From: Pseudomonadota bacterium
GTDB lineage: Bacteria > Myxococcota_A > UBA796 > SXON01
Length of the DNA: 64,000 nucleotides
Assembly (NCBI GenBank): GCA_005778355.1
Contig: SXON01000213.1
Coordinates: forward strand, 1 to 64,000
Direction of reading: 5' to 3'
Numbering within the stretch: position 1 is the stretch's first letter; the number at the start of each line of letters is the position of its first letter. This document shows positions 895-11,258 of this stretch, piece by piece. The notes under the pieces are model-generated. The model did not search any database and was not told the DNA's origin. It saw nothing but the letters and a program-made list of their open reading frames with translations. The position numbers and the translations under genes are program-made.

Positions 895-1036
895 TCGTCC
901 CGTACGAGGCATCCTCGGGAGGGGTGACACACATTTTTGTAGGGAAAGGCCACGCGCGGCCCTCTTGTCCGGCCTGGCGTTTGTCGTACCATCGCCGGGC
1001 CTCCCCTCACACATCTCCCGCCCCGGAGTCGTCGCC

Positions 1037-4000
1037 ATGTCGAGCCGCCCATCGAGCCCGAACGTTAGTCGTGTGTCCGCTACCCGGTGGGGGCTCTTGC
1101 TCCTCTGTGGCGCGGCGCTGCCTCTGGCCGCCCAGGCAAACAGCGTGACGGTGCTCTCCTCGCGCGCCTTCCTCGAGCCGAACTCGAGCAAGGCGGGCGA
1201 CAAGGACGGTTGCCCGCCGGTCAATAGCAGCGCCGACCCGGAGGAGTTCACGCTGCAGGCGAAGATCGTGGTCACCAGCGCGATCCTCAACCCCACGGTG
1301 CAGCTCGCCGACGATAACAACCCGGGCGGCGTGGAGAAGCGCACTCGCGACGATCTCACGCTCGACGAGTTCTCTGCCACCAACGGCGCGGCCGTGGCCG
1401 GCGGCACGCGCGACATCGACATGCTCGACGGCGCCGACGACGGCTACCTCGCCCCCGGCACCTACTATACCTACTTCAACCTTGACAAGACCGGCTACAA
1501 TCAAGAGACGCTGGCCAACTGCGCGGGCAACTCGATCACCGGCGACCGCGACAAGTACACCGTGGCCCTACATCGCGACGGCGTGGCCGTTACCTCGGGG
1601 AGCCTCAACACCGTGGCGGAGCCCTCCACGTCGATTGACCAGAACGACCTCGATTGGCTCGACACCCAGCCCGCCCTGAATTTCGCCGAGCCCGGTGAGA
1701 ACTTCTGCATCCGCACCAAGTACCGGCAATCGAGCGCCAACTCTGTCGACTACCTCACCGCGCACATCTACCACCACGCCGACCGCATCCAGCTCGACAG
1801 CGTGGATCTCTACTACTACAACACCGATGGTTCCGACCCGGGCTCCATCGAGGACGGCGTTCCCGGCGTGAGCACCACCGGCACCACGCCCACGCAGTCG
1901 TACTACGACACCGTGTACTTCTCGCCCACCGGAACGGCGTTGCCGAGCACCCAGACCACCGGCGACCACTGGGTGGCCGAGTACTGCTTCACCGTGGTGG
2001 GCGAGGGTTCCAGCCGCTTCATCCCCTACTTCATGACGCAACAGTCCGGCACCACCGGCACCTGGAAGATCGACTCCGGCTACGAAGGGTGGAACTCCGA
2101 GCCGCCGCCGATCAACCCCCCGGTGCTGGAGCTCTACAAGACCTGCGACGCCAGCGTCCCCTCGCTCACAGGCGGGTCTACGCAGACGGTCACCGAGACC
2201 CTGGAGGTCTGCAACACGGGCAACGGCGGCGCGGTCGACGTGGTGCTCGTCGATAGCTTGCCGCTCGACCCGAATGTCGTTTACTCCTCGTCGACCGGCG
2301 GCGGCGTTTTCGACACCGCCACCTCCACCGTCGAGTGGAGTATCGGTGCCATGGCCGCCGACACCTGCCAGTCCTTCGACCTGAACCTCATCGTGACACC
2401 GGACGCGCTCGACACGAGCATCGACACCAACGCCGGAGCGACCGTCGAGGGCGGCATGGAGATCGACCCGACGGTCTCGGTGTCGGACTCCACTACGGAA
2501 ACCTGCACGATCCCGGTGAACCCCTCCTACCCGACGCTCTCGATGAACAAAGCCGCCACCGGCTACACCGACAGCGACGGTAACGGCACGCTCTCGCCCG
2601 GCGACACGGTGTACTACAGCATCAGCTACAGCAACACCGGCACCGGCGCCGCCAGCGGCGTCGTGATCAGCGACAATCCCGATGAGACCTATGTCGCCAA
2701 CATCTCGGGCCTGACCGGTGGCAGCTACAACGGCAACACCGTCACGTGGAGCGTGGGCAGCGTCGCCGCCGGCGCCAGCGGCAGTGTCAGCTACTCGGCG
2801 AGCCTCCAGGGCCCGGGCGCCTTCGGGCATGGCACGACGACGGTCCTGAACACCGCCACGCTCACCGCCACCAACCACAGCACGCTCACCGACGCCGAGT
2901 CCGTGGCGGTGGCGGCCGCGACGGCGCTCACCCTCGAGAAGTCCGCCACCGGCTACGCCGACACCGACGGCAACGGCGTCTTGTCCCCCGGCGACACCGT
3001 TTACTACCAGCTCGCCTACGCCAACACCGGCAACGCCGACGCCACCACGGTCCTCGTATACGACGACATCGACGAGACCCTGGTCGACGCGGTGGGCGCC
3101 ATCTCCGACGGCGGCCTGTGGGACGGCGACCAGCTCGGCTGGAGCCTCGGCACGGTGGGCGCGGGCGACTCGGGCATCCTCACCTACGAGGTGACCGTGG
3201 CCGCAGCGGGCGCCTTCGCCGACGGCAGCACCGACCTCGTCAATATTGCCAGCATCGAGAGCCACGAGCTCGGCCCCGTGTCCGACACCGAGACGGTCGT
3301 GGTCCAGGCCTACGCGGCGCTGGCCATCGACAAAGTGGTCACCGGCTACACCGACGCTGACGGCGACGGCAGCCTCTCGCCTGGCGATTTCGTGAGCTAC
3401 TCGGTCACGGTCACCAACACCGGCAACGCCGACGCCACCGGCGTGAGCCTCGGCGACGACTACGACCAGTCCTACGTCGTGTCGACCAGCAGCACCGGCA
3501 CCGACAACGGCGACAGCATCAGCTGGAGCCTCGGCACCCTGGTCCCCGGCGCGTCGTCGAGTGTCAGTTACACCGCCACCCTCCGCGGGGCGGGCGCCTT
3601 CCTCCACGGCAGCACTGCCGTCAACAACACCGCCACCGCCGATAGCGACCAGACCGGCGGCGTGTCCGACAGCGCCAGCGTCATCGTGGGTGCCGCCGCC
3701 TCGCTGAGCGTGGCCAAGTCGGCCACCAGCTGGAACGACCTCGACGCCGACGGCGTGCTCTCACCGGGCGACCTTGTGAACTACACGGTGAGCTACCAGA
3801 ACAGCGGCAACGCCGCCGCCACCGGTGTCACGCTGGTGGACGACCCGGACGAGGCATATGTCAGCTTCGTCGATAGTGTCGATGGCGCCTGGGACGGCGA
3901 CACCGTCAGCTGGTCGCTGGGCACGCTCGCGGCCGGGGCCAGCGGCAGTGTCAGCTACACCGTCACTCTGGCCGACGCCGGTGCCTTCGCGCACGGCGAC

Positions 4001-6784
4001 ACCGAGGTGCTGAACCTCGTCGTGATTGACAGCAACGAGACCGGGCCGGACTCCGACACTGAGCTCGTGACGGTAAGCGCCAGCGCTTCCCTCGACATCG
4101 ACAAGGTGAGCACCGGCTACACCGACACCGATGGCAACGGCGTCCTCTCGCCGGGCGACACCGTCCACTACACCGTGAGCTACCAGAACACCGGCAATGC
4201 CTCGGCCACGGGTGTCACGCTCACCGACACGCCCGAGCTCTCGGCGGTCGGCGCCATCACCAACATCACCGGCGGCGGCGGCTACGACGGCGCGAGCATC
4301 AGCTGGACACTCGGCACCGTGGCTGCCGCCGGTTCCGGCAGTGTCAGCTACGACCTGGTGCTGGCGGCGGCCGGCGCCTTCGTTCACGGCAGCACGCCGG
4401 TGGCCAACACCGCGGTGGTGAACTCCCCGGAGACCGGACCCAGCTACGATGACGAGAGCGTCACCGTGGTGGCGGCAGCCTCGCTCGCCGTCGCCAAGTC
4501 GGCCACCGGCTACAGTGACGTCGACGGCAACGGCGTGCTCTCGCCGGGCGACCTTGTGAACTACTCGGTGAGCTACGCCAACACCGGCAACGCGACGGCC
4601 AATAGTGTCACGCTGGTCGACGACCCGGACGAGGCCGGCGTGCAGAGCGTGGAAGACATCACCGGCGGCGGCGCCTACGACGGCGACACCGTGAGTTGGA
4701 ACCTCGGCAGCCTCGCCCCCGGCGAGACTGGCAGCGTGAGCTACACCGCCGTGATTCTCGGTAATGGGTACTTCGCCGACGGCAACACGCCGGTCGACAA
4801 CTACGTGGTGCTGAGCTCGGCCGAGACCGGCCCAGCCACCGACAGCGACACGGTGACCGTGACCGCGGGCGCCGCGATCACCGTCGACAAGGCGGTGGTC
4901 GGCACGACCGACGTCGATGGCGACGGGCTCCTGTCTCCGGGCGACGTGGTGCACTACAGCCTCACCATCGCCAACCCGGCCAACGCCGACGCCACCGGCG
5001 TGTCCTTCGTCGACAGCCCGGAGACTGCGTACATCGCCAGCATCGGCAACATCAGCCACGGCGGCAGCTACGACGGGACGACGATCAACTGGAGCGTGGG
5101 CACGGTGCCCACCGGCAGTACCTTCACCGTGACCTACGACGTGACGCTCGCCGGCGCCGGCGCCTTTGCCGACGGCACCACGCCGGTGGGCAACACGGTC
5201 GTGGTGGACAGCAACGAGACGCCGCCGGCCAGTGACACCGACAGCATCGACGTGGTCGCCGCCGCCTCGCTCACCCTCACGGCCAGCGTGGCCGGCTACA
5301 CCGACAACGATGGCAACGGCGTGCTCTCGCCCGGCGACGCGGTCACCTGGCAGCTCGACTACGCGAACGTGGGCAACGCCGCCAGCACCGGAACGACGCT
5401 CGTCGACAGCGGCGAGTCGCCCTGGGTCGCGACCGTCGACAGCGCCTCCGGTGGCGGGCTCCTCTCGGGCCTCGACATCAGCTGGGATCTCGGCACGCTC
5501 GACGTGGGCGAGACGGGCAGCGTCGGGTGGACCGGCACCCTCGCCGGTGCCGGCACCTTCCCGGCCGGTAGTACCAGCGTCACCGACGGCGCCACGCTCG
5601 ACAGCAACGAGACCGCCCCGGTGTCCGACGCCGCCGCCACGGTGGTGACGGCCTACGCGGACCTCGCGGTCACCAAGTCGAGCACCGGCTACGCCGACAA
5701 CGACGGCAACGGCGCCCTGTCGCCCGGCGACACGGTGCACTACGCCGTGACCTACGCCAACACCGGCAACGCCAGCGCCCACGGTGTGAGCGTGAGCGAC
5801 GATCCCGACGAGACGGCGCTCGCCAGCGTCGGCAACATCAGCGGCGGTGGCGCCTACAACGGCAACACCATCGACTGGTCGCTCGGTACCGTCACCCCGG
5901 GCAGCGGCGACACGCTCACGTACGACGTGAGCCTCGGTAGCGCCGGCACCTTCGCCGACGGCACCACGGCCGTGCACAACGTGGTGGTGGTCGACAGCGA
6001 CGAGACCGACCCCGAGACCGACGACGAGACGGTGACCGTCACCGCCGACGCGGCGCTCGTGGTGGCCAAGACGGCCACCGGCTTCGCCGACAACGACGGA
6101 AACGGCGTGCTCTCGCCCGGCGACGACGTGAGCTACGTGATCGACTACCAGAACGCGGGCGACGCGGCGGCGAGCGGCGTGCTCCTCACCGACGACCCCG
6201 ACGCGACCTGGGTGGATGGCGTGAGCGGCATCACCGGCGGCGGAAGCTACGATGGCGACACGCTGAGCTGGAGCCTCGGCACCCTAGCCCCAGGGGCCTC
6301 CGGCGGCGTGAGCTACGTCGTGACGCTCGCGGCGGCCGGGGTCTTCCCCGACGGCGTGACGCCGGTCGACAACGTCGCCGTGCTCTCGTCGAACGAAGAC
6401 GGTCCGGTGTCCGACGACGAGACGGTGGACGTCGACGCCGCGCCCATCCTGGTGCCGAGCAAGTCGGTGTCGAGCACCAGCGCCATCACCCAGACCTTCG
6501 CCAACAGCCTCTCCGCCTGGAGCAACGAGGCGGCGGCGGTGACCAGTTCGGCAGCGGTGAGCACGGTGACGACGTCGACCCGCATCGTCTACACCCTCTC
6601 GGTGGCCAACACCGGCACCGCGACCGCGAGCGGGGTGACGCTGGAAGACGCGCTGCCGAGCGGCACGAGCCTCGAGTCGGCCACGGGCAGCTACACCAGC
6701 GCCGGCGGCGTCATCACCTGGACGGTGGCCGACCTCGCGCCCGGCGCGGCCGAGACGGTCACGCTGTCGGTGACCACGGACTAA
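1037..6784 (+). CDS. Giant exported protein with ten DUF11-type repeats
   Basis: This is a 1915-residue protein. ATG 1037 is preferred over an in-frame ATG 72 bases upstream because it sits after a GGAG and directly before an n-region plus hydrophobic signal peptide (WGLLLLCGAALPLAAQA). Residues 25 to about 370 form a unique N-terminal region rich in Tyr, Thr and Asp. A first DUF11-like domain follows (LYKTCDASVPSLTGGST), then ten tandem units of about 130 residues and a final DUF11-like domain. Each unit starts with a calcium-loop-like D-x-D-G-N-G-x-L-S-P-G-D motif and contains N-T-G-N-A and W-S-L-G-T motifs. DUF11 proteins are extracellular stalk or adhesin-like proteins; a structural or adhesion role is inferred. 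No sortase motif, MYXO-CTERM tail, PEP-CTERM or transmembrane anchor is present at the C-terminus, which ends shortly after TVTLSVTTD. Confidence 0.85.
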   Translation: MSSRPSSPNVSRVSATRWGLLLLCGAALPLAAQANSVTVLSSRAFLEPNSSKAGDKDGCPPVNSSADPEEFTLQAKIVVTSAILNPTVQLADDNNPGGVEKRTRDDLTLDEFSATNGAAVAGGTRDIDMLDGADDGYLAPGTYYTYFNLDKTGYNQETLANCAGNSITGDRDKYTVALHRDGVAVTSGSLNTVAEPSTSIDQNDLDWLDTQPALNFAEPGENFCIRTKYRQSSANSVDYLTAHIYHHADRIQLDSVDLYYYNTDGSDPGSIEDGVPGVSTTGTTPTQSYYDTVYFSPTGTALPSTQTTGDHWVAEYCFTVVGEGSSRFIPYFMTQQSGTTGTWKIDSGYEGWNSEPPPINPPVLELYKTCDASVPSLTGGSTQTVTETLEVCNTGNGGAVDVVLVDSLPLDPNVVYSSSTGGGVFDTATSTVEWSIGAMAADTCQSFDLNLIVTPDALDTSIDTNAGATVEGGMEIDPTVSVSDSTTETCTIPVNPSYPTLSMNKAATGYTDSDGNGTLSPGDTVYYSISYSNTGTGAASGVVISDNPDETYVANISGLTGGSYNGNTVTWSVGSVAAGASGSVSYSASLQGPGAFGHGTTTVLNTATLTATNHSTLTDAESVAVAAATALTLEKSATGYADTDGNGVLSPGDTVYYQLAYANTGNADATTVLVYDDIDETLVDAVGAISDGGLWDGDQLGWSLGTVGAGDSGILTYEVTVAAAGAFADGSTDLVNIASIESHELGPVSDTETVVVQAYAALAIDKVVTGYTDADGDGSLSPGDFVSYSVTVTNTGNADATGVSLGDDYDQSYVVSTSSTGTDNGDSISWSLGTLVPGASSSVSYTATLRGAGAFLHGSTAVNNTATADSDQTGGVSDSASVIVGAAASLSVAKSATSWNDLDADGVLSPGDLVNYTVSYQNSGNAAATGVTLVDDPDEAYVSFVDSVDGAWDGDTVSWSLGTLAAGASGSVSYTVTLADAGAFAHGDTEVLNLVVIDSNETGPDSDTELVTVSASASLDIDKVSTGYTDTDGNGVLSPGDTVHYTVSYQNTGNASATGVTLTDTPELSAVGAITNITGGGGYDGASISWTLGTVAAAGSGSVSYDLVLAAAGAFVHGSTPVANTAVVNSPETGPSYDDESVTVVAAASLAVAKSATGYSDVDGNGVLSPGDLVNYSVSYANTGNATANSVTLVDDPDEAGVQSVEDITGGGAYDGDTVSWNLGSLAPGETGSVSYTAVILGNGYFADGNTPVDNYVVLSSAETGPATDSDTVTVTAGAAITVDKAVVGTTDVDGDGLLSPGDVVHYSLTIANPANADATGVSFVDSPETAYIASIGNISHGGSYDGTTINWSVGTVPTGSTFTVTYDVTLAGAGAFADGTTPVGNTVVVDSNETPPASDTDSIDVVAAASLTLTASVAGYTDNDGNGVLSPGDAVTWQLDYANVGNAASTGTTLVDSGESPWVATVDSASGGGLLSGLDISWDLGTLDVGETGSVGWTGTLAGAGTFPAGSTSVTDGATLDSNETAPVSDAAATVVTAYADLAVTKSSTGYADNDGNGALSPGDTVHYAVTYANTGNASAHGVSVSDDPDETALASVGNISGGGAYNGNTIDWSLGTVTPGSGDTLTYDVSLGSAGTFADGTTAVHNVVVVDSDETDPETDDETVTVTADAALVVAKTATGFADNDGNGVLSPGDDVSYVIDYQNAGDAAASGVLLTDDPDATWVDGVSGITGGGSYDGDTLSWSLGTLAPGASGGVSYVVTLAAAGVFPDGVTPVDNVAVLSSNEDGPVSDDETVDVDAAPILVPSKSVSSTSAITQTFANSLSAWSNEAAAVTSSAAVSTVTTSTRIVYTLSVANTGTATASGVTLEDALPSGTSLESATGSYTSAGGVITWTVADLAPGAAETVTLSVTTD
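2540..6450 (+). repeat. Ten in-frame ~390-bp tandem repeats in the DUF11 protein gene
   Basis: Ten consecutive units of roughly 390 bp each begin with a segment encoding GYTD-x-DGNG-x-LSPGD and diverge moderately, often at synonymous third positions. Unit starts fall near 2540, 2935, 3330, 3715, 4100, 4490, 4880, 5275, 5665 and 6060. Several blocks such as ggcagtgtcagcta recur almost unchanged, consistent with duplication and gene conversion. Confidence 0.85.
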
Positions 6785-6839
6785 CGCTCAGTCCCAGCGG
6801 GGCCGCAGGATACGTTCCGGGCCCCGATTCGGAGAGATC

Positions 6840-7244
6840 GTGCAGCACGCGCCACACCCTGACGACCCGCTGGTGGAGGCCCTGGCCTTCGTGTACTTCT
6901 TCGTGGCCGAGCACGGCGACGACCAGGGGCTCACCCCCGACGAGCGCGCTCGCATCGCGGAGACGCTCACGCGTTGGCTCGCACTGGGTGCTCCCGCGTC
7001 CAGCGTCGGCCCCCTGGACGCGGCCATGGTGCGCGCCCTGTCGCAGGTGAAGGGCATGTCGGACGAGGCGACGCTCACGGCACTCCACAAGCACACGCGC
7101 ACGATCCGCACCCGGTTGACCAGCGACGATCACCGCAAGGCGGTCTTGTACGACATGGCCTCGGTCTCGCGTGCAGACGGGGTGATCACGCCGGGGGAGC
7201 GCGAGCTGGTCACGTTGGTGCAGCGGCTTCTGCTCGGCGCCTAG
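6840..7244 (+). CDS. Small TerB-like protein
   Basis: This is a 134-residue soluble, helical, acidic protein starting at GTG 6840 behind a GGAGAG site. The segment from about residue 100, with D-M-A-x-V-S-R-A-D-G-V-I-T-P-G-E, matches the end of TerB-like helical bundle domains, where an ADG...E-x-E pattern binds a cation. TerB proteins were named for tellurite resistance, but most members have no proven tellurite role. There is no signal peptide. It follows the DUF11 gene by about 55 bases and converges on the next gene, sharing the four bases CTAG as overlapping stop codons. Family placement is tentative. Confidence 0.5.
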   Translation: MQHAPHPDDPLVEALAFVYFFVAEHGDDQGLTPDERARIAETLTRWLALGAPASSVGPLDAAMVRALSQVKGMSDEATLTALHKHTRTIRTRLTSDDHRKAVLYDMASVSRADGVITPGERELVTLVQRLLLGA

Positions 7245-7801
7245 CGGCGCTTTCGCGAGTCGGGAATCTCGACCGTGACCTCGATGGCATCGGAGGCGGA
7301 CTCCGCGAGGCCCGGGAGCGCGGCCCTCGCTGCGCGCGCGAGGGCATCGCGCGTGGCGCTGCGCCGACTGGGTTCCGGGTCGGACACGTTGCTGGCGGTG
7401 AGGCCGCTCAGGTCGGTAAAGGTGCCGCCATCGACCAGGGCTTGCCGCCAGTGACGCCAGTGGTCGAGATCGGCCGCCGCGACTTCCACCACCCGAAACA
7501 GCTGGCGCGGGGCCTCGTCGTCGGCGGTGAGCAGGGTTCGGCCGGCGGTGGCGCTGCAGAGAGCATGCCCGAGCACGGGGCCCAGCTCCACCTTCAGCTC
7601 GGCGGCCACGCCGAGAGGAAGGGGATGATCCAGCTCCACGACCGCACGATCACGCTCGAGTGCGCGCACCACGCCGAACTGGAGAGAGCCGTCGGCGCGG
7701 ATGGCCACGGCGGCATCGGTGCGAACACGAGCATCGAGGTCCGGGTACATGCGAGTCGCTATCGCGTGGGGCCGAACGCGCAAACACTCACGATGCGTCA
7801 C
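7241..7801 (-). CDS. Hypothetical protein, possibly PilZ-like
   Basis: A 186-residue soluble protein starting at GTG 7801; an in-frame ATG at 7750 would give a 169-residue form. The N-terminal half has alternating hydrophobic strands (RVRTDAAVAIRADGSLQFGVV, VVELDHPLPLGV) reminiscent of a small beta barrel such as PilZ, but the PilZ c-di-GMP signature RxxxR and D/NxSxxG is not clearly present. The C-terminal half is Ala/Arg/Asp-rich. It lies 9 bases downstream of the GNAT gene on the same strand, so it may be the last gene of that operon. No function is assigned. Confidence 0.55.
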   Translation of the reverse strand: MTHRECLRVRPHAIATRMYPDLDARVRTDAAVAIRADGSLQFGVVRALERDRAVVELDHPLPLGVAAELKVELGPVLGHALCSATAGRTLLTADDEAPRQLFRVVEVAAADLDHWRHWRQALVDGGTFTDLSGLTASNVSDPEPSRRSATRDALARAARAALPGLAESASDAIEVTVEIPDSRKRR

Positions 7802-7810
7802 TTTGCCGCA

Positions 7811-8593
7811 TCAAATCTCGCTGGTGAGCACCTGGCGCCAATCGTAGGCCTCCATGCGGTGCGCGATGACGGTCGCGGTGGCCGTCGCCGGTAAGCCGAG
7901 CGCAAGGAGTTCGCGGCTCAGGGGGTCGTCAACGGGCGCGCAGAGCATGTGGACAGCGCCGTCGATCGGCTCCTCGTGTCCCCGATCGGCCAGCGGCCCG
8001 TGCTGCACGTGGAGCAAGGGGAGGGGCGCGCCGGTGGACGCCATGACCAGGTCCTTGACGCCCCGCAACGAGATGTAGGTCACGGGCCCTCGGTGACGAC
8101 GCAGCACGGGGGCCACCCGCTGCACCTCGCCACAGGACAGGGAGAAGAAGCTGAGTGTGGTGGCGTGTTCGATGGGGATAAGCGGAAAACGCCTAAAGAT
8201 CCTCAGCACTCGGTTCTCGCCTTGCGGCGGGTTCATGGAGATGCCAAAGCCGCGTGGACAGCGCGGGTACTCGGGCGGGAACGCCGACCCGAGCATGCGG
8301 AGGGGGATGCGCTCGCCTCGCCGGTCGGGGCGCACCTTGAGGTCGCCCACGTACCAGGCGCGTCCCACGGCGGGCAGCTCGCGGATCACCCCGCAGCCGA
8401 CGGCCAGCACCTCGCCGTCCTCCGCAGCCACGTAGTAGGCCAGCTCCCCGAGCCGGTCGAAGAAGGCAAAGTAGTCGCGACCGTGATCGATGCGGAAGTG
8501 GTCGTTACCGAGCGGGTAGAGGGAGCTTGCCTCGAGCGCCGCGACCGGTCCACGCCAGGCCTCGCGCTCGGCGTCGACCCGGAAGACGCGCAT
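7811..8593 (-). CDS. GNAT-like N-acyltransferase
   Basis: This 260-residue protein starts at ATG 8593, whose A is also the last base of the upstream TGA (TGATG), a sign of translational coupling. The N-terminal half looks like a GNAT fold: an amphipathic start, then a strand LAYYVAAEDGEVLAVGCGVIRE and a following YVGDLKVRPDRRGERIPLRML segment that resembles GNAT motif A (Q/R-x-x-G-x-G/A acyl-CoA pyrophosphate loop, here RPDRRGERIP). The C-terminal half (residues 140-260) has no recognised motif. GNAT enzymes move an acyl group from CoA or ACP to an amine. The tight linkage to the BtaA-like and diiron enzymes suggests it acylates their amino-containing product; this is inference. Confidence 0.6.
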   Translation of the reverse strand: MRVFRVDAEREAWRGPVAALEASSLYPLGNDHFRIDHGRDYFAFFDRLGELAYYVAAEDGEVLAVGCGVIRELPAVGRAWYVGDLKVRPDRRGERIPLRMLGSAFPPEYPRCPRGFGISMNPPQGENRVLRIFRRFPLIPIEHATTLSFFSLSCGEVQRVAPVLRRHRGPVTYISLRGVKDLVMASTGAPLPLLHVQHGPLADRGHEEPIDGAVHMLCAPVDDPLSRELLALGLPATATATVIAHRMEAYDWRQVLTSEI

Positions 8594-9351
8594 CACACCC
8601 GCACGTGCGGCACGCGGTGCGCCCGCGTCCAACGGCGCGTGCGCCCCCTGTACAGGCCCTCGTAGAGCCCGAGAAAGACACCGGCGCCTTGCATCAGGCC
8701 CTGCTCCACGTAGTAGTCGTCGGTAGCCTTGCCAATGCCGCTCGCGACGGCCTTGAAGAAATCGGTGGAGTGCCGCACGTCGAGCTTCTCGTGCACGTCG
8801 TAGTGGATGAGCTGCTCGGGTCGGAGCCAGCCCCGCGCGAGCACGGCGCGCCCGATCGCGCCGGAGATGCCCTGGAACATGTGCTCGATCATGCCGAGGG
8901 TGGCGGCGCCCACGATCCACTCGTCGAGCAGGCAAGCGCCCACCAGGGTGGTGTTGAAGGCCCGCAGCTCCGGCCAGAGCACGCGTGCCTCGATCGCGTC
9001 GTCGTCGAGGCCGTCGAGGCGCGACAAGAACTCGCGGAAGGTGGCGGTGTGGGAGCCCCCGGCGTTGCCCTCGCCGTGCTCCTCCCACACGTTGCGCAGC
9101 ACCTCGACGCGCTGCCCCGTGCGCGGGATCTTGCCGACCAAGAGCGACATCGGTCGCGAGAAGAAGGTGACGGCCCAGAAGAACTGCACCTGGGTTTCCA
9201 CGAAGTCCTCGCGCGACATCGTGGCGAGGCCCTCTATGTAGCTGTTCTGGCGCCAGTCGAAACGCCGCGTCGTCGAGTCGACCAGGGCGAGCACGCGGGC
9301 CAGCTGGGCGCCAGGTACAGCAGGTCGCGACAGCTCGTAGATTTCGCTCAC
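8593..9351 (-). CDS. Heme-oxygenase-like diiron (HDO/TENA-PqqC-like) redox enzyme
   Basis: A 252-residue all-helical protein starting at GTG 9351, overlapping the upstream gene by GTGA. The ligand-like motif VWEEHGEGNAGGSHTATF at about residues 87-105, the helix LLDEWIVGAATLGMIEHMFQ and the later HYDVHEKLDVRHSTDFF give the spaced Glu/His pattern of the iron-containing redox enzyme family (TENA/THI-4, PqqC, CADD and HDO enzymes). HDO enzymes activate O2 with a diiron site to desaturate, cleave or N-oxygenate amino acids and fatty acids. Being sandwiched between a BtaA-like transferase and a GNAT enzyme, it probably oxidises the transferase product. The reaction cannot be read from the sequence. 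Confidence 0.75.
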   Translation of the reverse strand: MSEIYELSRPAVPGAQLARVLALVDSTTRRFDWRQNSYIEGLATMSREDFVETQVQFFWAVTFFSRPMSLLVGKIPRTGQRVEVLRNVWEEHGEGNAGGSHTATFREFLSRLDGLDDDAIEARVLWPELRAFNTTLVGACLLDEWIVGAATLGMIEHMFQGISGAIGRAVLARGWLRPEQLIHYDVHEKLDVRHSTDFFKAVASGIGKATDDYYVEQGLMQGAGVFLGLYEGLYRGRTRRWTRAHRVPHVRV

Positions 9352-10298
9352 GCTTTCACGCCGACGAGCACCCGGTTGTAGAAACCACTCGTCTCGGCGG
9401 CGGCGAGGAGCTCGGCGCGCCCGGGCTCAAACGCCACGCCGGGGAACTCGTCCTCCACGCGGCGCTCATTGTTCAGCTGCCGGATCGTCACCACCGCCCC
9501 GGGGCGGAGCTGCTCCGCGATGCGCGCCGCGAGCCGATTGACGTCGGTCGGCGGTGTCCAGTCGAAGACGTTGCTCAGGTGCACGAGGTCGAATGTGCCG
9601 TAGTCGTCGACCTCATCGAGGGTACCGAGCACGTGTTCGAAACGACAACGCGGTGGGTCGGTGCGGCGCAGGAACAGGGGGCGGGCGCGCTCGCGGTAGC
9701 GACCCGTCAGGAGCTGCGCGAGGAAAGGGTTGCGCTCGGGGCCGAGGTTCTCGAGCAAGTCCTCCACGGCTTCCTGGAAGTACCGGGCGTAGCTCCCCGG
9801 CGTGCCGTGCTGCACGGCGGCCGGCCCGAAGGTGGCCACCAGCATCGAATCGGAGAAGAAGAGGTCGAAGGCCACGGGCCAGTACGGCGCCGTGGTGAGC
9901 TGGCGCCGCGCGTGGGCGTCGCCTGCCGCGGCGGCTTCCAGCGTGTCGCGCGGGGCGACGAACTCTCGGATGAAGCTGCGAAGCTGACGGAACAGCGCCT
10001 CGAAACGACCGTTCTCGCTGAGGCCGTCTGGGTCGTCGCTGCCCACGTTGAAGCGCGCGAGGGGGGCGCGGTCGAAGAGCGCTCGCACCTTGGCCTCGAC
10101 GTGCGCGTGTTGCGCGGGGTTTGGGTCGACCAGTCGGACCCGGGCGCCGGGAAGTTCGTGCTGGATCGCCAGCGCGGTGCATCCCCCGCTCGCGACGCAC
10201 ATCACGGCGGGGTTTTCCCGGCCGAGACGCTGGAGCTCGGCCAGCTCGACGAGGGGATCTTCGCGCACCACGGCGAAGCTGAGTCTCGGGTCGCGCAT
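9348..10298 (-). CDS. DUF3419/BtaA-like S-adenosylmethionine 3-amino-3-carboxypropyl transferase
   Basis: A 316-residue protein from ATG 10298. It has the family's SAM-binding start VASGGC at residues 35-40 (BtaA: x-S-A/G-G-C-N/T-A), the hallmark DPNPAQ at 58-63, the middle NPFLAQLLTGRYRE block and the late LVHLSNVFDW segment matching the L-S-D/N-I/V-F-E/D motif. BtaA transfers the 3-amino-3-carboxypropyl group of SAM to diacylglycerol, making the homoserine lipid that BtaB then methylates to the betaine lipid DGTS. No BtaB is adjacent. Instead, two overlapping downstream genes encode a diiron oxidase and a GNAT enzyme, and a CFA-like methyltransferase is divergent. The acceptor may be a lipid or another molecule. 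Confidence 0.85.
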   Translation of the reverse strand: MRDPRLSFAVVREDPLVELAELQRLGRENPAVMCVASGGCTALAIQHELPGARVRLVDPNPAQHAHVEAKVRALFDRAPLARFNVGSDDPDGLSENGRFEALFRQLRSFIREFVAPRDTLEAAAAGDAHARRQLTTAPYWPVAFDLFFSDSMLVATFGPAAVQHGTPGSYARYFQEAVEDLLENLGPERNPFLAQLLTGRYRERARPLFLRRTDPPRCRFEHVLGTLDEVDDYGTFDLVHLSNVFDWTPPTDVNRLAARIAEQLRPGAVVTIRQLNNERRVEDEFPGVAFEPGRAELLAAAETSGFYNRVLVGVKA

Positions 10299-10409
10299 GC
10301 GCCGACCTATCCGGCGAGGGCTCGCGGAGAGTGACCGGCCGGAATGATCGGTCGGGAGGCGTGCAGTTGCGCATCCGGAGGTTAGCCGGCGGCCCACTCC
10401 GGAGCGCCC
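10299..10409. promoter_or_regulatory. Shared divergent promoter region of the BtaA-like operon and the CFA-like gene
   Basis: These 111 bases separate two divergent start codons. A GACCG (10333-10337) / CGGTC (10349-10353) dyad with an 11-base spacer and an inner ccggccgg palindrome could be an operator. The plus-strand gene has a GGAG 8 bases before its ATG. No confident -10/-35 pair was found. Confidence 0.3.
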
Positions 10410-11258
10410 ATGACCTCCACGCAAGCCGAGATCGACGTCAGCTACAGCGTCAGCAACGACTTCTTCAAGCTGTGGCTCGACGAGAACATGCACTACACCT
10501 CTGCAGTGTACGAGCGGCCCGACCAGTCGCTGGAAGAAGCCCAGGAGAACAAGGCCCGGGTCCTCTACGACTTCGCCGAGCTCGGCGCCGACCAGACCGT
10601 GCTCGACATCGGCTGCGGCTGGGGCTCGATGCTCGACTACTGCGTGCGCCGCGGCATCAAGCGCGCCGAGGGCGTCACCCTGTCCACCGCGCAGGCGGAG
10701 TGGTGCTACGCGCGGAAGTTGCCTCGCACGCAGATCCACATCTGCGACTACCGCGAGTGGAAGCCGGCCGAGAAGTACGACGGGCTCGTCAGCATCGAGA
10801 TGATCGACCACCTGTGCTCGCCCGCGCAGGCGCGCGAGGGCAAGGCGATCGACATCTACCGCCAGTACTTCAACAAGCTGGCGGAATGGGTGGAGCCCGG
10901 GGCCCACTTCGGCTTCCAGGCCATCCTCACCAACCGGATCCCCCGCAAACGCCAGGACTTGCTCGACCTCCAGTTCACCGCCGACGTGATCTTCCCGGGC
11001 GGGCGCAACCCTCGCGTCGAGGAGCTCGTCGCGGCGGTCAACCCGAACTGGGAGATCCGCGAGTTGCACATGCGCCGCGAGGACTACGGCCGCACCACCG
11101 CCGAGTGGCTGCGCCGCATGCGCCAGCACGAGAGCTACATCCGCGACACCTGGGGTGGCGCGCTGTTCGACGACTACGAGCGTTACCTCGACACTTGCGT
11201 GCGGGGCTTCGCAGCGCACTGGTCGGGCGACGTGCAGATGAAGCTGCGCCGGATCTAG
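10410..11258 (+). CDS. Cyclopropane-fatty-acyl-phospholipid synthase-like SAM methyltransferase
   Basis: A 282-residue protein, the size of mycolic-acid methyltransferases rather than the 382-residue E. coli Cfa. It has the family start VSYSVSNDFFKLWLDENMHYTSA, motif I VLDIGCGWGSMLDY (about residues 64-77), GVTLSTAQAEW and the late HMRREDYGRTTAEWLRRM. The family's S-x-x-M-x-E-H-V-G active-site segment reads SIEMIDHLC here, so one Glu is Asp and the Gly is lost; cyclopropanation is therefore not assured. CFA-family enzymes methylate unsaturated acyl chains of membrane lipids, and some relatives methylate other acceptors. The divergent pairing with a BtaA-like gene fits lipid modification, possibly of the same lipid. 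It converges on the helicase with a shared CTAG. Confidence 0.8.
   Translation: MTSTQAEIDVSYSVSNDFFKLWLDENMHYTSAVYERPDQSLEEAQENKARVLYDFAELGADQTVLDIGCGWGSMLDYCVRRGIKRAEGVTLSTAQAEWCYARKLPRTQIHICDYREWKPAEKYDGLVSIEMIDHLCSPAQAREGKAIDIYRQYFNKLAEWVEPGAHFGFQAILTNRIPRKRQDLLDLQFTADVIFPGGRNPRVEELVAAVNPNWEIRELHMRREDYGRTTAEWLRRMRQHESYIRDTWGGALFDDYERYLDTCVRGFAAHWSGDVQMKLRRI

Follow-up and report, generated by a model that had tools for sequence, protein, structure and literature searches.

DUF3419 proteins are, to our knowledge, known almost solely as BtaA. This enzyme moves the 3-amino-3-carboxypropyl group of SAM. In the window, the 64,000-nucleotide stretch of contig SXON01000213.1 that was analysed, a DUF3419 gene (BTA) lies in a row with genes for a heme-oxygenase-like dimetal oxidase (HDO) and a tandem GNAT acyltransferase, and diverges from a CFA-like methyltransferase gene (Table 1). 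The locus thus raises the question of which of these genes belong together and what they might make. The most far-reaching answer considered here, to which a probability slightly better than even is assigned, is an undescribed three-enzyme pathway in which the BtaA relative, HDO and tandem GNAT act on SAM to give oxidised, N-acylated amino metabolites or aminolipids of a new class, with a distribution over at least two, probably three, phyla and a Mycobacterium plasmid. All three enzyme families are already known, and the class of the product stands a fair chance of being new; no published description of the DUF3419-HDO-GNAT combination was found in the open-access literature.

Layout of the locus

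The trio genes and the CFA-like gene lie where the preliminary description had placed them, as the sequence and Pfam matches confirm, and its account of the overlaps and of a divergent 111-bp region is also correct. BTA and HDO overlap by 4 bp (GTGA), and HDO and GNAT by 1-4 bp (TGATG or GTGATG). The trio promoter presumably lies in the 111-bp region. The genome of the window (G000) is a draft of 6.6 Mb in 252 contigs and is 85% complete; it belongs to the phylum Myxococcota, as judged from its nearest public relative, L005, a MAG of that phylum. The 186-aa gene that begins 9 bp after the GNAT gene is conserved at two further trios, those of L005 and L014, and is absent at other trios. The window also encodes a large, repetitive protein with many near-identical repeats.

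Table 1. Features of the locus and their positions in the window
Feature	Positions	Strand	Length	Basis or remark
BTA, BtaA-like DUF3419 protein, trio gene 1	9348-10298	-	316 aa	PF11899, E=1.5e-19
HDO, heme-oxygenase-like dimetal oxidase, trio gene 2	8593-9351	-	252 aa	PF14518, E=5.4e-14
Tandem GNAT acyltransferase, trio gene 3	7811-8596	-	260-261 aa	homologues and structure model
CFA-like methyltransferase (CMAS family)	10410-11258	+		PF02353, E=2e-54
Stretch between BTA and CFA-like gene	10299-10409	genes divergent	111 bp	sequence
186-aa gene	7241-7801	-	186 aa	no significant Pfam match
Surface-like repetitive protein	965-6784		1939 aa	many near-identical repeats

Conservation of the three genes in Myxococcota

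In a profile scan of 379 Myxococcota genomes, trio-type BTA was found in 21, with scores of at least 274 bits and the next match at 116. A separate scan recovered trio-type HDO in exactly the same 21 genomes (at least 283 bits, next match 125), and the GNAT gene is present in every one of them. Both profiles were built from trio members, and their thresholds were read from the score gap and not set beforehand. Under random placement, a BTA-HDO overlap of this extent among 379 genomes has a p value of about 6e-35, a figure whose true value is less extreme because of shared descent. The 21 genomes span about ten families, and the DUF3419-HDO-GNAT trio is a real unit. The preliminary description had staked its three-gene set, independent of BtaB, on conservation in relatives, and the distribution over 21 of 379 genomes bears it out. 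Chance adjacency was considered as well and is ruled out by the reciprocal co-occurrence.

A scan of relatives showed all three genes, in the order of the window, in L005, L006 and L007, with BTA identity falling to 43-44%. The order BTA-HDO-GNAT is seen in the lineage of the window and a few others, most other loci have BTA-GNAT-HDO, and in one genome HDO is divergent from the other trio genes. Junctions are overlapping or nearly abutting in most loci, with about 1.2-1.6 kb ahead of HDO in two; in G358, the operon is split by a contig end and its remainder lies on a second contig. Pairwise divergence is correlated among the BTA, HDO and GNAT proteins (Mantel r 0.52-0.72). The distribution is patchy, with the trio present in three of the 11 genomes of the window genus. 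No other widely recurring neighbour families were found around the trio loci, the remaining common clusters being antisense frames of the trio genes themselves.

The CFA-like gene

The preliminary description had counted the CFA-like methyltransferase as a pathway partner, a role that its distribution contradicts. The gene occurs in 21 of the 22 genomes of the window family, at 72-100% identity, and only four of these carry the trio; the window and relatives of the same genus are the only places where it adjoins the trio, and it is absent at all more distant trios. For these reasons, it is left out of the system. A version of the pathway with four genes, including the methyltransferase, can point to the divergence from a common 111-bp region in the window and same-genus relatives. 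Against it stand the status of the gene as a family core gene found mostly without the trio, its absence beside distant trios and the genome G010, in which it lies on a different contig from the trio, and the probability left to a four-gene system is close to nil. Measured against the NCBIfam equivalog PRK11705, the protein scores 128 bits where 400 are required, and it is classed only as a member of the CMAS family. At motifs that look by eye like those of its active site (MHYTSAVY, EMIDHL), this product of a family core gene has unusual residues.

The DUF3419 protein and the place of BtaB

BTA scores 70.9 bits with PF11899, above the curated cut-off of 28.2, and so belongs to the DUF3419 superfamily. 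The trio BTA proteins form one clade (22 rows, support 99/99), outside of which falls the Rhizobium BtaA that has a methyltransferase next to it; the Mycobacterium protein takes a weakly supported position in this tree. BTA is without a segment that in BtaA-type proteins follows the SAM-binding region and precedes the helical middle, as alignment shows and as the unmatched profile positions 76-126 indicate, and its WED motif has R in place of W. With the BtaA-type segment gone, the acceptor may differ in kind. The structure model of BTA (pLDDT 71), which draws on just four sequences, is class I methyltransferase-like. A fold search returned class I methyltransferases generally; CntL and a nicotianamine synthase appeared as weak, low-ranking matches. 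Given the modest confidence of this model and the generic nature of its matches, methyl transfer may be the reaction catalysed. No solved structures related to BTA by sequence were found.

That BtaB is missing, as had been claimed, is true of the window locus, where none is present next to BTA; elsewhere in the 85% complete genome, the methyltransferase in the Rhizobium BtaB position has only weak matches, the best at E=6e-8. In a rival reading, the locus would serve ordinary betaine-lipid synthesis, with BtaB encoded at a distance and HDO and GNAT as mere neighbours. Such a role would suit a member of DUF3419, the family of BtaA, and a draft genome that is 85% complete could hide a partner. 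It is nevertheless very improbable in view of the strict co-inheritance of BTA with HDO and GNAT, the separation of its clade from Rhizobium BtaA and the lack of a strong BtaB candidate in the same genome.

The dimetal oxidase

In HDO, the residues E91, H101, E156, H187, D191 and H194 align with those that we take, by their numbering in 1RCW, to be the metal ligands of CADD. They are invariant in 21 sequences and make up the complete three-His/three-carboxylate set of an HDO, and the HDO profile matches CADD (1RCW) across most of its length. This 3H/3C motif is established for HDOs (PMC13108848). A self-sacrificing pABA synthase of the CADD type was rejected: the sacrificed Tyr27 and Lys152 are without counterparts at the aligned sites, which hold F/V/L/I and I/L/H in the 21 HDOs, and the scores lie far under the family cut-offs. 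A Tyr is found one position before the Tyr27 equivalent in 20 of the 21. In-frame TGA flags in the HDOs of G125 and G245 proved to be simply their normal stop codons.

The substrates of characterised HDOs are mostly amino or fatty acids. Functional validation exists for no more than about a dozen HDOs (PMC13108848), and an operon of three genes in which the partners are fixed and residues conserved therefore offers direct experimental access to a new HDO reaction.

More distant HDOs occur outside the trio. Three large myxobacterial genomes (G340, G369 and G371) encode one without a trio-type BTA, and that of G340 (L105, 7620-8834) has an extra C-terminal domain that appears PilZ-like by eye. 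On the Streptomyces plasmids L064 (8232-9618) and L065 (8232-9630), a solo HDO of about 34% identity, with no DUF3419 neighbour, lies behind an EF-hand protein.

The acyltransferase

Taken alone, the GNAT protein of the window matches Pfam at E=0.005, under the cut-off, and Pfam GNAT models match 16 of the 21 homologues. Its structure model (pLDDT 72, four sequences) consists of two GNAT-like halves, and its best fold matches are the histidine acetyltransferase HisAT/NAT16 and a tandem GNAT of the clavulanate cluster. In the first half, the R-G of the CoA motif is retained, with R92 invariant and G93 near-invariant, so that fold and CoA-binding motif together place the protein in the GNAT superfamily. 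For HisAT, the group that receives the acyl chain is a free alpha-amino group (PMC12219266).

Spread beyond Myxococcota

A second set of 392 genomes, reached via the genome of L007 (G379), shares no genome with the set of 379 and therefore apparently represents another phylum. Trio-type BTA is found in seven of these genomes, with HDO adjoining in all seven and GNAT in six; at the seventh locus, the contig stops inside HDO. More distant DUF3419 proteins of the same set adjoin GNAT in L128 and L129 and, on the 9.5-Mb contig of L130, adjoin HDO with GNAT one gene beyond. A search of a plasmid collection added a linear plasmid of Mycobacterium riyadhense (Actinomycetota), on which DUF3419, HDO and GNAT genes are followed by an MmpL/RND transporter gene. 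With a transporter gene next to this copy, export of the product from mycobacterial cells is a possibility.

Other neighbours are confined to single lineages. An AMP-binding ligase adjoins the trio copy in G181, and a flavin amine oxidase-like gene either overlaps the trio start or abuts it in G241 and G327 (L054, 7336-8991; L053, 10094-11866). Together with MmpL in Mycobacterium, these genes are hints of a lipid, each from one lineage. In G402 (L122, 66-2558), a PPDK-like PEP-utilising protein adjoins the trio in divergent orientation.

Proposed pathway

When the chemistry of BtaA, of HDOs and of HisAT is combined, the simplest reading is that a SAM-derived amino-acid unit would be oxidised and N-acylated. 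By analogy, the DUF3419 enzyme would take the 3-amino-3-carboxypropyl group of SAM, release methylthioadenosine and either attach the group to an acceptor or cyclise it. HDO might then alter the amino-acid unit with O2, by desaturation, hydroxylation, C-C cleavage or N-oxygenation, and the tandem GNAT would move an acyl group from CoA onto the amine. The product is possibly amphiphilic and exported. The order of reactions and the lipid nature of the product are both inferred; the former cannot be read from the two arrangements of the genes, and the main pointer to the latter is a hint, the MmpL gene adjoining the Mycobacterium copy. The path set out in the preliminary description thus keeps its conserved gene set and a plausible fit of the parts to transfer, oxidation and N-acylation, and loses its CFA-like partner. 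That the trio is a self-contained cassette, with a small, SAM-derived, oxidised N-acyl amino compound as product and the CFA-like gene uninvolved, is given an even chance.

Two other products can be weighed against the same evidence. As a membrane aminolipid variant, the trio would still use BTA to join homoserine through an ether bond to diacylglycerol or a different lipid alcohol, and remodelling of the head group by HDO and GNAT would take the place of methylation by BtaB. Membership of BTA in DUF3419, the MmpL transporter after the Mycobacterium trio and the AMP-binding ligase beside the G181 copy are in keeping with a lipid; the missing BtaA-type segment and the restriction of each lipid-linked neighbour to a single lineage are not, which leaves the aminolipid variant possible and on the unlikely side. 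Alternatively, BTA alone could cyclise SAM to homoserine lactone, azetidine-2-carboxylate or aminocyclopropane carboxylate, after which HDO would oxidise the ring and GNAT acylate it to give a signal-like or antimetabolite molecule. Methyltransferase-like enzymes are known to perform such cyclisations (PMC10491745), and a three-gene pathway of this kind would need only SAM, O2 and acyl-CoA, which would explain why no further genes are conserved. BtaA chemistry, however, is intermolecular, and cyclisation is considered distinctly improbable. 

Comparison with known systems

Among the known relatives of the trio GNAT, HisAT/NAT16 and the GNAT of the clavulanic acid cluster share its two GNAT-like halves and give the best fold matches, but the trio protein is only 10-13% identical to them. 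The trio HDO has its fold and 3H/3C set in common with the self-sacrificing pABA synthases CADD and NePabS and with HrmI and BesC, which include its nearest solved structures by sequence. At the equivalents of CADD Tyr27 and Lys152, none of the 21 trio HDOs has Tyr or Lys.

Another arrangement of DUF3419 is seen in the genome of the window itself, where a second DUF3419 gene (L004, G000:C141, about 3000-7400, minus strand) stands in a row UbiA - PEP/pyruvate-binding - DUF3419. The same row occurs on a Roseinatronobacter plasmid, where two hypothetical genes and then an AMP-binding gene come after it, and a PPDK-like protein accompanies this row as it does the trio of G402. As in the trio, DUF3419 here has no typical BtaB behind it; the partners are different, however, and the DUF3419 proteins fall outside the trio clade. 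As far as seen, the UbiA-type row is a second undescribed DUF3419 system without a typical BtaB.

The closest known system is the synthesis of betaine lipids (DGTS) by BtaA and BtaB, with which the trio shares the BtaA family, DUF3419 (PF11899). The trio differs in having no adjacent BtaB and no strong candidate for one in the genome of the window, in its partners HDO and GNAT, in the separate clade of its BTA proteins and in the loss of the BtaA-type segment. Co-inherited without BtaB, it would represent a second use of the DUF3419 fold, in the form of a compact and expressible target.
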